This document shows, in pieces, positions 22,864-57,535 of a stretch of DNA of 64,000 nucleotides (its first letter is position 1; the number at the start of each line of letters is the position of its first letter). The DNA comes from Gammaproteobacteria bacterium. Its GTDB lineage: Bacteria > Pseudomonadota > Gammaproteobacteria > Steroidobacterales > Steroidobacteraceae. The notes under the pieces are model-generated. The model had not been told where the DNA came from and made no database searches. It saw only the letters and a program-made list of their open reading frames with translations. The position numbers and the translations under genes are program-made. Location of the stretch: the NCBI GenBank assembly GCA_025350055.1, contig JANXYK010000011.1, positions 62,001 through 126,000 on the forward strand, read 5' to 3'.

Positions 22864-22879
22864 TGGCACAGCACTTGCT
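22864..22879 (+). promoter_or_regulatory. Sigma-54 promoter of the flgB operon
   Basis: TGGCACAGCACTTGCT matches the -24/-12 consensus, with GG-N10-GC spacing. It lies about 47 bases upstream of flgB and is divergent from the flgA promoter. Confidence 0.9.
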
Positions 22880-40856: not shown

Positions 40857-42527
40857 ATGGCCAATGACCAGCTCGCGGGCGCCTTGCGCCCAGCCTTCAA
40901 TCTCCGACCCCTGCTGCTGCTGCTCGGCATTGCCGGTGCAGTAGCCGCTGGCGTGGCGGTGATGCTGTGGTGGCAGGGTCCGAACTGGAGCGTGCTGTAC
41001 GGCAACCTGGAGGCCAACGACGCCAGCCAGGTGGTGCAGGCGCTGCAGACCGCCGGCATCAAGTACAAGCTCAGCGATGCCACGGGTGCCGTGATGGTCA
41101 GCGCCAGTGAAGTGCGCGAGGCACGCCTCAAGCTCGCCTCCCAGGGCCTGCCGGAGAGCGGCAACAACGGCCTCGAGATGATCAACAAGGATTCGGGCAT
41201 CGGCGTCAGCCAGTTCATGGAGAACGCGCGCTACCAGTACGCGCTCGAGAACGAACTGGCACGCACGATCGCCACGATCAAGTCGGTAGTCGCCGCGCGC
41301 GTGCATCTGGCGATCTCGCAGCAATCGGCATTCATACGCGAGCGCCGCCCAGGCAGTGCCTCGGTGCTGCTGCAGCTGCGGCCCGGTGGTCGGCTGGAAG
41401 CCGAGCAGGTGCAGGCGATCGTGCATCTGGTGGCCTCCAGCATCCCGGATCTCAATGCCGAGCAGGTCACCGTGGTTGATCAGCAGGGCCGCCTGCTAAC
41501 GTCCAGCGTATCTCCGCAAGCGACGATCCAGAGCGAGCGCTTCGCCGCCGCGCAACGCGTCGAGGAGAGCTACGCCCAGCGTGTCGAGGGCCTGCTGGCG
41601 CCGCTGTTCGGCGCCGGTCGCGTGCAGGCGCAGGTCACCGTGGATCTGGACGCGATGGAGAATGAGGAATCACACGAACAATACAAGCCCGACAGCGCGG
41701 TGGTCCGCAGTGAGCAGACCGCCGAGCAGACTGCGCCTGTCGGTGGCGCTGCCAGCGGTGGCGTGCCTGGCGCGCTCACCAACCAGCCGCCGGCCGGTGG
41801 CACAGTCGCTGCCGTCGCGGCGCCGCAGAGCGGTAATGCAAATGCGCCAGCGGGCACCACGACGCCCGCGAGCGCGGCGGCGCCGGGTGCAGCAGGTGCT
41901 GCGGCTGCCGCGGCGGTGCCGGAGAGCGTCAGCAAGCAGGCGACGCGCAATTTTGAGATCGATCGCACGCTCAGCTACAAGCGTGAACCCGGTGGCCGCA
42001 TCAAGCGCCTGACCGTGGCCGTGCTGGTCGACAACCCGAGCAAGATGGCTGCCGATGGCAAGACCGTTGCAGCCCCCCTGAGCGCGACCCAGATCGATGA
42101 CATCACGAAGCTGGTGAAAAACGCGGTGGGCTTCGATGAAGCGCGCGGTGACAGCGTGAGCGTGGTCAACGAAGCTTTCCACAGCGAACAGACCGACATG
42201 AAGCCCGAGGACGTGCCGATCTGGCAGCGACCGATGGTGCAGGACATCGCGCGACTCGCACTCGGTGCGCTTGTGCTGCTGGCGATCGCGCTGGGCATCC
42301 TGCGGCCGATGATCCGCAGCCTCACGACCGCCACGCTGACGCCGGTGATGGTCGGTGCCGGGCAGGCCACGGCAGGTGCAGGTGGTGAACTACCGTCGGG
42401 CGGTGCGGGCGGCGAAGGGCAGGCTGCGCCACTGGCTTACGAACAGCAGATCGTGCAGGCCAAGAACCTGGTCGCACAGGATCCCAAGCGCGTGGCGCAG
42501 GTCGTGAAGACCTGGGTGGGTGAGTGA
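40857..42527 (+). CDS. fliF: Flagellar MS-ring protein FliF
   Basis: A 556-residue inner-membrane ring subunit. TM1 is at about 20-40; the ring-building motifs are VLYGNLEANDASQVVQAL, ALENELARTIATIKSVVAARVHLAI and VDLDAMENEESHEQYKPDSAV. TM2 is at about 465-485. The C-terminal FliG-binding tail ends with NLVAQDPKRVAQVVKTWVGE. An Ala/Gly-rich insert at about 295-355 is longer than in most relatives. It overlaps fliG by one base (TGATG). Confidence 0.95.
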   Translation: MANDQLAGALRPAFNLRPLLLLLGIAGAVAAGVAVMLWWQGPNWSVLYGNLEANDASQVVQALQTAGIKYKLSDATGAVMVSASEVREARLKLASQGLPESGNNGLEMINKDSGIGVSQFMENARYQYALENELARTIATIKSVVAARVHLAISQQSAFIRERRPGSASVLLQLRPGGRLEAEQVQAIVHLVASSIPDLNAEQVTVVDQQGRLLTSSVSPQATIQSERFAAAQRVEESYAQRVEGLLAPLFGAGRVQAQVTVDLDAMENEESHEQYKPDSAVVRSEQTAEQTAPVGGAASGGVPGALTNQPPAGGTVAAVAAPQSGNANAPAGTTTPASAAAPGAAGAAAAAAVPESVSKQATRNFEIDRTLSYKREPGGRIKRLTVAVLVDNPSKMAADGKTVAAPLSATQIDDITKLVKNAVGFDEARGDSVSVVNEAFHSEQTDMKPEDVPIWQRPMVQDIARLALGALVLLAIALGILRPMIRSLTTATLTPVMVGAGQATAGAGGELPSGGAGGEGQAAPLAYEQQIVQAKNLVAQDPKRVAQVVKTWVGE

Positions 42528-43540
42528 TGCCTGAGGCACAGACCAGTTCGCGTCCCGGGGTCGAGCAGGCGGCCATCCTGCTGCTGTCGCTCGGTGAACA
42601 GGATGCCGCGCAGGTGCTCAAGCACCTGGGCGCCAAGGAAGTCCAGAAGGTCGGCGCGGCGATGGCGCAGCTCGCGGGCATCTCGCGCGAGGAAGTCAGC
42701 AGCGTGCTCGGCAATTTCGCCACGCGTGTCGAGCAGCAGAGCTCGCTTGGCGTCGACTCCGATGAATATGTGCGCAAGGTGCTCAACGAAGCACTGGGCG
42801 CAGAGAAGGCCGGCGGCGTGATCGATCGCATCCTGCGCGGCCGCAGCAGTCGTGGTCTCGAAGCCGTGAAGTGGATGGAGCCCAAGGCCGTAGCTGCCAT
42901 GCTGCGCCAGGAGCATCCGCAGATCATCGCCATCGTGCTCTCGTACCTGGAGTCCGAGCAGGCCGGCGAGGTGCTGGCCGGGCTCCCCGAGGAGATACGG
43001 CCGGATGTGATCGTGCGCATCGCCACACTCGATGGCGTGCACCCCTCGGCGCTCAACGAACTCGATGAAGTACTGGAGAAGCAGTTCGCCGGCAGCAGCA
43101 CCGCCAAGACCGGTGGTTTCGGCGGGCCGAAAGTCGCGGCCGCGATCCTGAATCTTGTGGGGTCGGGCGCCGAGACGAAGATCATCGAAGAGATCGCCAG
43201 GGGCGATGCCACGCTCGGCCAGAAGCTACAGGACCTGATGTTCGTGTTCGAGGACCTGAAGAGCATCGACGATCGTGGCATGCAGGAACTGCTGCGCGAG
43301 GTGCCGGGCGACAAGCTCATCCTGGCCCTGAAGGCCACCGACGAGGAGCTGAAGCAGAAGTTCTTCAAGAACATGTCCGAGCGCGCATCCCAAATGCTCA
43401 AGGATGACCTCGAGGCCAAGGGCCCGGTCAAGCTGAGCGAAGTGGAGGAAGCGCAGAAGGAAATCCTGGTCACCGCGCGCCGCATGGCCGAGGAAGGTCG
43501 CGTGCAGCTCGGTGGCAAGGGCGGAGAAGAGTATGTCTGA
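42527..43540 (+). CDS. fliG: Flagellar motor switch protein FliG
   Basis: A 337-residue C-ring rotor protein that contacts FliF, FliM and the stators. N-terminal domain AAILLLSLGEQDAAQVLKHLGAKEVQKVG, middle LRQEHPQIIAIVLSYLE (with the EHPQ motif that binds FliM), C-terminal torque domain FVFEDLKSIDDRGMQELLREV with the charged helix. The EHPQ motif is intact although no fliM lies in this cluster. Confidence 0.95.
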   Translation: MPEAQTSSRPGVEQAAILLLSLGEQDAAQVLKHLGAKEVQKVGAAMAQLAGISREEVSSVLGNFATRVEQQSSLGVDSDEYVRKVLNEALGAEKAGGVIDRILRGRSSRGLEAVKWMEPKAVAAMLRQEHPQIIAIVLSYLESEQAGEVLAGLPEEIRPDVIVRIATLDGVHPSALNELDEVLEKQFAGSSTAKTGGFGGPKVAAAILNLVGSGAETKIIEEIARGDATLGQKLQDLMFVFEDLKSIDDRGMQELLREVPGDKLILALKATDEELKQKFFKNMSERASQMLKDDLEAKGPVKLSEVEEAQKEILVTARRMAEEGRVQLGGKGGEEYV

Positions 43541-47250: not shown

Positions 47251-47266
47251 TGGCACGCAGCTTGCT
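47251..47266 (+). promoter_or_regulatory. Sigma-54 promoter of the fliL operon
   Basis: TGGCACGCAGCTTGCT is a full match to the sigma-54 consensus with GG-N10-GC spacing. It lies about 35 bases upstream of fliL and drives fliLNOPQR-flhB. Confidence 0.92.
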
Positions 47267-47299: not shown

Positions 47300-47809
47300 A
47301 TGTCCACCCCAGCTAAACCCGCCGCCGCTGGCGGCGCCGCACCGGTCGCCAAGAAAAGCAAACTGCCGCTGCTCATCATCGTGGCCGTCGTGGCACTCGG
47401 AGGCGGAGGTGCCGCGTTCTGGTTCCTGCGGCCACAGGCCGCGGCCGCCGACGCGAAGCCTGCGGCTGCCGAGACCAATACCAAGGCGGCGCCGATCTAC
47501 TACAAGTTCGAACCCGCTTTCGTCGTCAATTTTGGCGCCGAGGGCAACACCCGTTTCCTGCAGGTCACGCTCGAGGCGATGAGCCGCGATCCAAAGGTGG
47601 TCGAGGAGATCAAGAACAACGAGCCCGCGATCCGCAATGATCTGGTGCTGCTGTTCTCCGCGCAGCAGTACGACACGCTGATCGTGGCCGAAGGCAAGGA
47701 AAAGCTGCGCCAGCAGACACTCGAGACCGTGCGCAAGGCGGTCAGTGCCGAGGGCGGCAAGGCCGAGGCGGTCGAGGGCGTGTACTTCACCAGCTTCGTG
47801 ATTCAATGA
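47300..47809 (+). CDS. fliL: Flagellar basal body-associated protein FliL
   Basis: A 169-residue single-pass membrane protein that supports the stator. The short cytoplasmic N-terminus is followed by a TM segment LLIIVAVVALGGGGAAFWFL (about 25-45). The periplasmic domain has YKFEPAFVVNFG, RFLQVTLEAMSRDPKVVEEI and VYFTSFVIQ. GAGG lies nine bases before ATG 47300. Its stop overlaps the next start (ATGA), and that next gene is fliN rather than fliM. Confidence 0.93.
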   Translation: MSTPAKPAAAGGAAPVAKKSKLPLLIIVAVVALGGGGAAFWFLRPQAAAADAKPAAAETNTKAAPIYYKFEPAFVVNFGAEGNTRFLQVTLEAMSRDPKVVEEIKNNEPAIRNDLVLLFSAQQYDTLIVAEGKEKLRQQTLETVRKAVSAEGGKAEAVEGVYFTSFVIQ

Positions 47810-48174
47810 GTACCGAAGGCGCAGCAGCGGCCAGCGCTGGTGCAGCCCCTGCCGAAGCGCAGGCCACTGCATTCGCCAACCTGAGCGCCGACCCCGGCGC
47901 CGGCACTGGCGGCGACATCAATCTCGATGTCGTGCTCGACATACCGGTGACGCTGTCGATGGAAGTCGGGCGCAGCAAGCTCAGTATCCGCAATCTCCTG
48001 CAGCTGAACCAGGGATCGGTGGTCGAGCTGGACCGCGCAACCGGCGAGCCGCTGGATGTCTATGTGAATGGCACGCTCGTGGCGCATGGCGAAGTGGTCG
48101 TGGTCAACGAGAAATTCGGCATCCGCCTCACAGACGTCATCAGCCCTGCCGAGCGCATCCGCAAGCTGCGTTGA
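47806..48174 (+). CDS. fliN: Flagellar motor switch protein FliN
   Basis: A 122-residue C-ring protein. The N-terminal 40 residues are an Ala-rich linker. The SpoA domain (about 45-120) has VLDIPVTLSMEVGRSKLSIRNLLQLNQGSVVELDR, EPLDVYVNGTLVAHGEVVVVNEKFGIRLTDVIS (core LVAHGEVVVVNEKFGIRLTD). Length is normal for FliN, so it is not a FliM-FliN fusion. It directly follows fliL by a 4-base overlap. Confidence 0.95.
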   Translation: MSTEGAAAASAGAAPAEAQATAFANLSADPGAGTGGDINLDVVLDIPVTLSMEVGRSKLSIRNLLQLNQGSVVELDRATGEPLDVYVNGTLVAHGEVVVVNEKFGIRLTDVISPAERIRKLR

Positions 48175-48237
48175 TCCTTGCACCGCAGACGGGAATCCGT
48201 CAGCACCGCTGGCACGGCGGTTGCTTTGTCTACGGAC

Positions 48238-48756
48238 ATGCAAACCCAGTCAAAGAACGGTCGAGAATCCCGGGCGCGCTCCTGCGCCCGCCTGCTGTGC
48301 GGCGGCCTGCTGCTGACCCCCTTGCAGGCGCTGGCGGCAGCGCCAGCACATGGCAGTTTCGCTGCGCCCGCGCAGTTCTCGGGCGGCGGCACCAGCTTTG
48401 GCATGCTGCGCGTCTGCGTGGCACTCGCGCTGGTGCTGGCCAGTGTCTATGGCGTGGCCTGGCTGATGCGCCGCCTGCGTGGTGCCGCGGGTGTCAGCGC
48501 ACCGGGCATCGCCATCGTCTCGCAGGTATCGCTGGGCGCGCGCGAGCGCGCCGTGCTGCTGCGTGTGGGCGAACGGCATCTGCTGGTCGGTGTGGCCGCC
48601 GGCAGTGTGCGCCTGCTCCAGGAAGTGAATTTCGCAAGCCCGCCCGATGGCGCGCCGCTGACTACGGGTGGAGCCGCAGCAACAGGCGGGGCATCCGCGC
48701 CCGTTGCCGTGCCACCGAGTTTCCGCGAGTTGCTGCGCCGGAGCCTGGGCCGATGA
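48238..48756 (+). CDS. fliO: Flagellar biosynthetic protein FliO
   Basis: A 172-residue membrane protein helping FliP assemble. It has an N-terminal hydrophobic leader, one TM segment (LRVCVALALVLASVYGVAWLMRRL, core VALALVLASVYGVAWLM) and a cytoplasmic domain with VSLGARERAVLLRVGERHLLVGVAAGSVRLLQEV. The start is uncertain: ATG 48238 is chosen; an in-frame TTG at 48178 would add 20 residues. The stop overlaps fliP. Confidence 0.88.
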   Translation: MQTQSKNGRESRARSCARLLCGGLLLTPLQALAAAPAHGSFAAPAQFSGGGTSFGMLRVCVALALVLASVYGVAWLMRRLRGAAGVSAPGIAIVSQVSLGARERAVLLRVGERHLLVGVAAGSVRLLQEVNFASPPDGAPLTTGGAAATGGASAPVAVPPSFRELLRRSLGR

Positions 48757-55199: not shown

Positions 55200-56052
55200 T
55201 GCGGTGCTGGGTGCCCGGCCCGCGCAGGGCATCCAGGTGATAGCAGTCAGCGGCGGGAAGGGCGGCACCGGCAAGACCACGGTGTCCGTCAATCTCGCCA
55301 CGGCCCTCGCGGCCGCGGGCCGCAGGGTGTTGCTGCTCGATGGCGACCTCGGGCTCGCCAACGTCGATGTGCTGCTGGGGCTTACGCCCGCGGGCACGCT
55401 CGAGCAGGTACTGCAGGGAAAACGCCGCCTCGAGGAGATCGTGGTGCGCAGCGCCGATGGCGTGAGCGTGATCCCGGCCGCTTCGGGCGTGGCGCGCATG
55501 GCCCAATTGCCGCCCAGGGAACTCGCGGCCATCGTGCAGGCTTTCAGCTCGCTCCCAGGCGACTACGACACGCTGTTGATCGATACCGCCGCGGGATTGG
55601 GCGATGCGGTGCTCGCCTTCTGTCAGGCCGCACAGCACCAGCTGCTGGTGATCCGCAATGAACCGGCGAGCCTCACCGATGCCTATGCACTGATCAAGAC
55701 CCTGAGCCAGGAGCGCAAGCTGCGCCGCTTTCGCGTGCTGGTGAACATGGCGCGCGCCGGCAGCGAGCCGCAGCAACTGTTCCGCCGTCTGCAACGCGTC
55801 GCCGATCGCTTCCTCGACGTGACGCTCGACTATGCCGGCGACATTCCCGACGACGAGAGCGTGGCGCGCGCAGTGCGCGCGCAGCGTTCGGTGCTGGCGG
55901 CCTTCCCCGGTGGCCCGGCTGCGCGCGCTTACCGTCAGCTCGCCAGTGCCACGCAGCACTGGCCGGTGCCGCCGGAGTCGGTCGCCGGCATGCAGTTCTT
56001 CATCGAGAGATTGCTGGCGCGTCCGCCAGCCCGATTGCAGGTGATCAAATGA
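55186..56052 (+). CDS. flhG: MinD-like ATPase FlhG/FleN (flagellar number regulator)
   Basis: A 288-residue P-loop ATPase limiting flagellar number and antagonising FleQ in Pseudomonas. Deviant Walker A GGKGGTGKTT (about 24-33), LLLDGDLGLANVDVLLGL (switch I/Walker A'), and DYDTLLIDTAAGLGDAV (switch II). ATG 55186 with GGGAGA six bases upstream lies inside flhF. The N-terminal DQAxxLR-type helix that activates FlhF in some species is not evident (here RQRNAVLGAR). Confidence 0.93.
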   Translation: MRQRNAVLGARPAQGIQVIAVSGGKGGTGKTTVSVNLATALAAAGRRVLLLDGDLGLANVDVLLGLTPAGTLEQVLQGKRRLEEIVVRSADGVSVIPAASGVARMAQLPPRELAAIVQAFSSLPGDYDTLLIDTAAGLGDAVLAFCQAAQHQLLVIRNEPASLTDAYALIKTLSQERKLRRFRVLVNMARAGSEPQQLFRRLQRVADRFLDVTLDYAGDIPDDESVARAVRAQRSVLAAFPGGPAARAYRQLASATQHWPVPPESVAGMQFFIERLLARPPARLQVIK

Positions 56053-56777
56053 ATGGTGCACAAGCCTATGCGAGCGTGGCGCCGGCCGGTGACGGAGACG
56101 CGTTGGTGCGTCGTCACGCCGACCTGGTCAAGCGAATTGCCTATCATCTGGCCGGTCGTTTGCCTCCCCAGGTGGAGGTGGATGATCTGGTGCAGTCGGG
56201 CATGATCGGCCTGCTCGAAGCCGCGCAGCATTTCACGGCCGGACGCGGCGCCAGTTTCGAAACCTACGCCGGCATCCGCATCCGCGGTGCCATGCTCGAT
56301 GCGCTGCGTAAGCTCGACTGGGCGCCGCGCTCCGTACATCGCAAGGCGCGCGCCGCGGCGGCCGCGATCCGCTCAGTGGAAGCCAACACCGGCCGCGAGG
56401 CCAGCGACAGCGATGTAGCCGCGCACATGGGTGTCTCGATCACCGACTACCACGGCATCATCCAGGATGCGCTCGGCTGCCAGCTGCTGCGCCTCAATGA
56501 CGCCGACGATGGCGAGGATTCGACACTTGATCGGCTCGCGCACGCGGGCCCCGATCCACAGACTGAAATCCTGGACGACGCGCGTCGTCAGGCCGTGATC
56601 GATGGCATCAATCGCCTGCCCGAGCGCGAGCGGCTGGTGCTGTCGCTCTATTACGAACAGGAACTCAACCTCAAAGAGATCGGTGCGGTGCTCAAGGTCA
56701 CCGAGTCGCGAGCCTGTCAGCTGCACGGCCAGGCGCTGGTGCGGTTGAAGGGTTTGCTGACCGAGTGGCGCGCTTAA
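56049..56777 (+). CDS. fliA: RNA polymerase sigma-28 factor FliA
   Basis: A 242-residue alternative sigma factor for late flagellar genes. Region 2: VKRIAYHLAGRLPPQVEVDDLVQSGMIGLLEAA and YAGIRIRGAMLDALRKLDWAPRSVHRKAR (core RIRGAMLDALRKLDWAPRSV). Region 3 lies in the middle, and region 4 is LPERERLVLSLYYEQELNLKEIGAVLKVTESRACQLH. ATGA overlap with flhG. Its targets in the window are the flgM and fliC promoters. Confidence 0.96.
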   Translation: MNGAQAYASVAPAGDGDALVRRHADLVKRIAYHLAGRLPPQVEVDDLVQSGMIGLLEAAQHFTAGRGASFETYAGIRIRGAMLDALRKLDWAPRSVHRKARAAAAAIRSVEANTGREASDSDVAAHMGVSITDYHGIIQDALGCQLLRLNDADDGEDSTLDRLAHAGPDPQTEILDDARRQAVIDGINRLPERERLVLSLYYEQELNLKEIGAVLKVTESRACQLHGQALVRLKGLLTEWRA

Positions 56778-56794: not shown

Positions 56795-57535
56795 GTGGAC
56801 ATACTGAGTCTAGTTGGGCTGCTACTCGCGGGAGTAGCCATCATCGCTGGTGCCATCCTCAAGGGCGCCGGCGTAGAGGCGCTTTTGTCCTCGGCGGCCT
56901 TCATGATCGTGGTCGTCGGCACGATGGCGGCCACCTGCCTGCAGACACCGCTGAATGTGATGCGCCGTGCTTTCGTGATGCTGCCCTGGGTGTTTCGCCC
57001 GCCGGCGCGCGCGCCGGCCGCGCAGGTCGGCAAGCTGGTCGAGTGGAGCGGCATCGCGCGCAAGCAGGGCCTGCTCGGGCTTGAACCGATCCTGCGTCGT
57101 GAGCCCGACGCCTTCCTGCGCAAGGGCCTGCAGCTGGTGGTCGATGGCAGCGCGCCCGACACCATCCGCAGCACGCTGGAAGTCGACATGTACGCGCGCG
57201 AAACCGCGGACCTGCGCGCTGCCAAGGTATTCGAAGCCATGGGCGTGTACTCGCCGACGCTCGGCATCATCGGCGCGGTGCTGGGTTTGATGGCGGTGAT
57301 GCAGAACCTGGCCGATCCCTCCAAGCTCGGCCACGGCATAGCCGCGGCCTTCACCGCCACGGTGTATGGCATCGGTCTCGCCAACCTGCTGTTCCTGCCG
57401 ATGGCCAACAAGCTCAAGGGCGCGGTGCAGAGTCACGCGCACGAACACGAGATGCTGATCGAAGGACTGATCTGCATTGCCCAGGGCGACAACCCGCGCG
57501 TGATCGAGGGCCGGCTGCGCGGTTACCTGCAATAA
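56795..57535 (+). CDS. motC: Flagellar stator protein MotC (MotA family)
   Basis: A 246-residue MotA-type ion channel subunit with four TM helices. N-terminal VGLLLAGVAIIAGAILKG; the cytoplasmic loop has the charged rotor-contact region; EAMGVYSPTLGIIGAVLGLM and AAFTATVYGIGLANLLFLPMANKL carry the conserved prolines and ion-path threonines. It starts with GTG 56795, 17 bases after fliA. The MotC/MotD naming follows the Pseudomonas/Xanthomonas locus order. Confidence 0.93.
   Translation: MDILSLVGLLLAGVAIIAGAILKGAGVEALLSSAAFMIVVVGTMAATCLQTPLNVMRRAFVMLPWVFRPPARAPAAQVGKLVEWSGIARKQGLLGLEPILRREPDAFLRKGLQLVVDGSAPDTIRSTLEVDMYARETADLRAAKVFEAMGVYSPTLGIIGAVLGLMAVMQNLADPSKLGHGIAAAFTATVYGIGLANLLFLPMANKLKGAVQSHAHEHEMLIEGLICIAQGDNPRVIEGRLRGYLQ

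Follow-up and report, generated by a model that had tools for sequence, protein, structure and literature searches.

The flagellar switch gene fliM, missing from the fliL-fliN operon of this gammaproteobacterium, has been relocated and not lost. An intact fliM, the only one in the assembly, lies on a different contig (C63) and is directly followed by a second fliN, here called fliN2; in terms of sequence, the FliM of this motor is ordinary. The original prediction offered two options, a fliM encoded elsewhere or a motor with an unusual switch lacking FliM, and it is the first that holds. It had also anticipated that a fliM found elsewhere would make this a simple relocation, and here it was only partly right: the gene has moved, but a second, divergent fliN travels along with it. 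We consider it probable that the fliM-fliN2 pair is the remnant of a chemotaxis-linked switch module that displaced the native fliM, with FliN2 joining the FliM/FliG/FliN ring.

In the window (the whole 64,000-nucleotide stretch analysed, on contig C10), fliL is the first gene of the fliL-fliN operon and runs on the plus strand from 47285 (GTG) or 47300 (ATG) to 47809 (Pfam FliL PF03748, 88 bits). Where relatives have fliM, the window fliN (47806 to 48174, plus strand) overlaps fliL by the four bases ATGA, and the junction reads ATTCA-ATGA-GTACC. These coordinates and letters agree with the claim that the overlap leaves neither room nor scar for fliM: no fliM-like sequence or fliM scar was found between the two genes, and the genome-wide FliM search gave no match on contig C10. 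The accompanying claims about the neighbouring switch proteins were also borne out, as FliN is intact and of normal, canonical length (122 aa; FliMN_C, 90 bits; C-terminal tail ERIRKLR) and the intact FliG (fliG, 42524 to 43540, plus strand) keeps its EHPQ motif. The junction is flanked by fliK upstream and by fliO (48178 to 48756, plus strand), fliP, fliQ, fliR and flhB downstream. The window thus has the same genes, the same fliK-fliL...fliN-fliO-fliP-fliQ-fliR-flhB order and the same sigma-54-type promoters as the canonical polar-flagellum operon of Gammaproteobacteria, but the canonical operon keeps fliM in the middle, whereas here it has been removed and is encoded elsewhere.

The genome-wide search for FliM proposed with the original prediction returned one full-length protein with an EIDALL motif, a CheC-like middle domain and a SpoA domain. 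Its gene occupies positions 52212-53225 of C63 (10213-11226 of stretch L002), encodes 337 aa without interruption and is preceded by the ribosome site GAGGAGGG. The middle domain (PF02154) scores 208 bits against a curated cut-off of 27 and covers positions 1-190 of 192, and the C-terminal SpoA domain (PF01052, FliMN_C) scores 55 bits against a cut-off of 23.8. The N-terminal LAQEEIDALL is of the CheY-binding EIDALL type and GGTG is present; the alignment shows LAQEEIDALLKG and FFGGTGR. There are three SpoA domains in the genome: those of the window FliN, of FliM and of FliN2. The fliN2 gene (L002 11223-11516) has an intact frame that starts inside the fliM stop, again as an ATGA overlap, and its short product (97 aa) carries a SpoA domain of 84 bits, over the curated cut-off. 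The surrounding genes are non-flagellar, with an FMN reductase upstream on the opposite strand and PAP2, carbonic anhydrase, OsmC and sucA downstream (the last three named from their sequences), and there is no fliG beside fliM on C63. The upstream neighbours of sucA differ in most congeners, and an aflagellate congener (G014) has the FMN reductase near sucA with other genes in between and no fliM-fliN2, which suggests that the C63 site is variable.

Sigma-54-type promoters occur at both loci. The window contains five such sites against 0.39 expected, a number reached by none of 100 shuffles: TGGCACGCAGCTTGCT (47251 to 47266, plus strand) lies 18 bases upstream of fliL, one lies inside the start of fliO (48210-48225), and others precede the second fleQ-like gene and flhA. 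A further site at 22864-22879 is far upstream, away from obvious operon starts. On C63, CGGCACGCGCTTTGCA stands 63 bases upstream of fliM, the single match in 20 kb where 0.08 would be expected. Based on its resemblance to the sites before the fleQ-like gene, fliL and flhA, fliM-fliN2 is probably expressed alongside the other flagellar genes.

The departure of fliM from fliL is rare in the order. Among 216 genomes, nearly all draft assemblies and some of them MAGs, 102 have FliM and form the flagellated set, in which adjacency was read by eye from listings. fliM adjoins fliL in 95 of the 102; the primary fliM is unlinked in six (the window genome G000, G006, G029, G034, G186 and G240), and linkage is undecidable in one (G171), where a contig end cuts the region. 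Since eight congeners also keep fliM beside fliL, its absence from the window junction is not due to chance. In total, ten genomes with unlinked fliM came to light, spread over three genera of a single family, and in each of them a sigma-54-type site lies within 350 bases of the unlinked fliM operon. Comparison of the same locus in relatives, likewise part of the original proposal, showed that eight genomes of the window's genus (g1) retain fliL-fliM-fliN and six do not (G000, G001, G002, G012, G013 and G006). In G001, G002, G012 and G013 the fliL-fliN junction is TAA, a short gap and ATG, as opposed to the ATGA overlap of the window, and fliM stands alone at one common locus without a second fliN. 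Because their FliM also belongs to a different lineage in the tree, displacement has probably occurred on more than one occasion, and not in every case together with fliN. The idea that all unlinked FliM share one fused history had to be discarded, as a clade of G000 and the G001 group gave a p-AU of 0.012 and the two loci have no neighbours in common. G006, in which no main-cluster fliL-fliN was found, has a divergent second flagellar system; the unlinked fliM of this genome stands alone behind a sigma-54-type promoter and may be a switch gene left over. In G004 (72% complete), flhB and sucA on contig C23 look frameshifted or broken, probably through assembly errors, and the N-terminal region of fliM contains N bases. 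We found no published report of the relocated fliM-fliN2 arrangement in open-licence papers.

The closest counterparts of the C63 locus occur in related genera. In G029 and G240 (g16) and in G034 and G186 (g21), the unlinked fliM lies within a fliG-fliM-fliN module beside cheY/cheZ/cheA. The main clusters of all four lack fliM and have fliN; the main-cluster fliG is missing in G034 and G240, kept in G029 and not seen in G186, whose contig begins near fliH. G146 (g18) has an extra fliG-fliM-fliN-cheY-cheZ-cheA block besides a normal fliL-fliM-fliN, about 70 kb apart on contig C14, and with both sets it likely represents an intermediate state of fliM displacement. G029 has two FliG genes: the main cluster keeps the native one, and the chemotaxis-linked module carries another of g1 type. 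The g16 module FliG nests inside g1 beside the window's subclade (support 94/93), which suggests transfer between these genera. FliN2 groups with the module FliN of G029 and G240 (100/98), although its branches are so long that this grouping could partly reflect long-branch attraction, and the C63 FliM groups weakly with the FliM of the same modules (73/67).

Like the modules of all five genomes, C63 has an unlinked fliM followed by a divergent, tail-less fliN, and like four of the five it has a sigma-54-type promoter. The promoters of the G240 and G029 modules read CGGCACG[CG]CATTTGCA. The five modules keep fliG and che genes beside fliM, whereas C63 has neither an adjacent fliG nor cheY/cheZ/cheA, and we therefore call fliM-fliN2 a module remnant and not a member. 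The window genome also has no flagellar CheA or CheZ, unlike the module genomes with their cheY/cheZ/cheA.

Under the explanation we favour, the pair would be what remains of a fliG-fliM-fliN2 module that once stood beside cheY/cheZ/cheA, as in g16 now. By supplying a FliM, the module would have made the native gene between fliL and fliN dispensable and so allowed its clean deletion. The subclade would later have lost its flagellar chemotaxis genes and the window genome its module fliG, leaving fliM-fliN2 behind its sigma-54-type promoter. The motor would then assemble a normal FliG-FliM-FliN ring from the C63 FliM and the window's FliG and FliN, and FliN2 may fill, or compete for, the FliN position paired with the FliM SpoA domain. 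No congener contains a complete module, so that the loss of its fliG and che genes is reconstructed rather than observed.

A less probable explanation, which nevertheless deserves weight, is that only fliM matters at C63 and that FliN2 is a redundant, decaying copy without a role. The four congeners of the G001 group manage without a second fliN, and FliN2 has evolved many times faster than FliN. Against decay, the frame of fliN2 is intact and overlaps fliM, and every one of the five module genomes has retained such a FliN copy. A comparison of G034 with G186 moreover shows purifying selection on the module FliN (dN 0.023, dS 0.156; dN/dS about 0.15, compared with about 0.01 for the main FliN). 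Where such a FliN occurs, the FliM SpoA domain has also diverged further, at 40-50% identity to out-of-genus FliM in modules against mostly 52-66% in others, but there are exceptions, namely G006 (42%, no FliN2) and G057 (39%, fliM linked). Measured against g1 FliM, the SpoA domain of G029 is 64% identical, compared with 65-67% for in-place copies, and identity is equally low in the G001 group, where FliN2 is absent, and in the window genome. Co-divergence of the FliM SpoA domain with FliN2 is thus suggestive only.

It is rather unlikely that the native fliM and a copy of fliN simply moved in one rearrangement, with no module involved and FliN2 a fast-evolving duplicate. The C63 FliM does fall within the g1 FliM group with the in-place copies of G004 and G007, and a tree joining the g1 FliN, FliN2 and the g16 module FliN in one clade is compatible with the data (p-AU 0.45). 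However, LLQLTAGSV and FDVLVNG occur in both FliN2 and the g16 module FliN, both have lost the C-terminal tail, and the promoters of C63 and the g16 modules are near-identical over 16 bases. An artefact of assembly or binning, with C63 stemming from another organism or fliM dropped from C10, is very improbable. The genome is a draft (3.29 Mb, 76 contigs, 96% complete), but estimated contamination is 0.1%, the fliL-fliN junction lies inside one continuous contig, and fliM is just as cleanly missing from four congeners, in which the junction reads differently. In addition, the sucA about 2 kb past fliN2 shares 79-80% identity with the sucA of congeners G001 and G002, which places C63 in the window's genus. 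A motor that lacks FliM or runs on a substitute switch has nothing in its favour beyond the gap in the cluster and can practically be dismissed, as the intact fliM on C63 refutes it at the sequence level.

The relocated pair and the modules of relatives raise the possibility of a switch with two types of FliN. An ER(I/L/V)xxL-type C-terminal tail, a feature observed in the present comparison and not a published family criterion, is found in every complete main-cluster FliN examined, module genomes included; neither FliN2 nor any of the five module FliN has it. In trees of FliG and FliM, the window genome with g16, the g21 genomes and G146 look like separate module groups, which makes repeated loss of the tail probable. 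A topology test that grouped the g21 and G146 module FliM was left out of account, since it had taken in a second-system FliM of G034. The solved C ring contains one FliN paired with the SpoA domain of FliM and two further FliN that form a pair with each other (PMC11528121), and we infer that a FliN2 serving as dedicated FliM partner, with the window FliN as homodimer, would fit this structure. A more far-reaching proposal, which we regard as tentative, is that the switch genes of this family form a portable module in which FliM and FliN2 become an exclusive pair wherever fliM moves with a fliN copy of its own, and the unaltered main-cluster FliN provides the homodimer and export dock. FliN2 would then fill the FliN1 position of PMC11528121 by dimerising with the FliM SpoA domain, and if so, a C ring with FliM:FliN2:FliN at 1:1:2 would replace one with FliM:FliN at 1:3. 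Two FliN-like proteins, FliY and FliN, also occur in the C ring of Campylobacter and Helicobacter, for which divergence after duplication has been proposed (PMC6946799). There too, one SpoA protein gene (fliY) is in an operon with fliM and the other lies apart, as in the window genome. FliN2, in contrast, is a plain 97-aa FliN that arose separately and consists of a SpoA domain without the CheC-like domain by which FliY is recognised.

Pseudomonas-type clusters carry a cheY-cheZ-cheA-cheB block. There is no such block in the window between fliA (56049 to 56777, plus strand) and motC (56795 to 57535, plus strand), which follows closely behind, and a genome-wide search found neither CheZ nor a flagellar-type CheA. 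A 1842-aa ChpA-type kinase on C17 (L109 7350-12878) is the only protein resembling CheA, and its neighbours are an MCP and a CheW-like protein. This is, apparently, a flagellated bacterium without a flagellar chemotaxis kinase. Within g1, a flagellar-type CheA occurs in G003, G005, G008, G009, G010 and G011, all with fliM in place, and CheZ was detected in five of these six. In G000, G001, G002, G006, G007, G012 and G013 the only kinase is ChpA-like, of the type IV pilus class, and CheZ is absent; fliM is displaced in all of them except G007. In G004, at 72% completeness, neither kinase nor CheZ was seen, and fliM is in place. Flagellar CheA and CheZ are both gone from the window's subclade. 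As pilus-type PilG has been reported to bind FliN in Xanthomonas (PMC7029496), a pilus-type CheY could, as a lead only, still reach the motor of this genome.

This loss goes together with divergence of FliM. In comparisons that ignore relatedness (no phylogenetic correction), FliM of the CheA-less g1 genomes shares 46-53% identity with outgroup FliM, compared with 58-62% for the remaining g1 genomes, the middle domain falling to about 50-52% from 67% while SpoA changes little; across family f1, FliM scores have a median of 241 bits with CheZ (n=20; range 212-247) and 178 without (n=15; range 120-239), separating the two groups with an area under the curve of 0.97, against 0.57 for FliL scores. 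FliG, FliN, FliI, FlhA and FlhB hardly differ between CheA-less and other g1 genomes, and CheA-less FliM keeps EIDALL (EINALL in G006). CheY docks between FliM middle domains in the solved C-ring structure (PMC11528121).

The gene order fliL-fliM-fliN is very stable in this bacterial order, and the interest of the present case extends beyond relocation to the history of the module and the second FliN. A family in which fliM has repeatedly left its place, sometimes with fliG, fliN and che genes, offers a natural test of co-evolving switch contacts. Moreover, loss of flagellar chemotaxis is linked here to the divergence of one FliM domain while neighbouring flagellar proteins are unchanged, and the constraint that CheY docking places on FliM could therefore be measurable from genomes.
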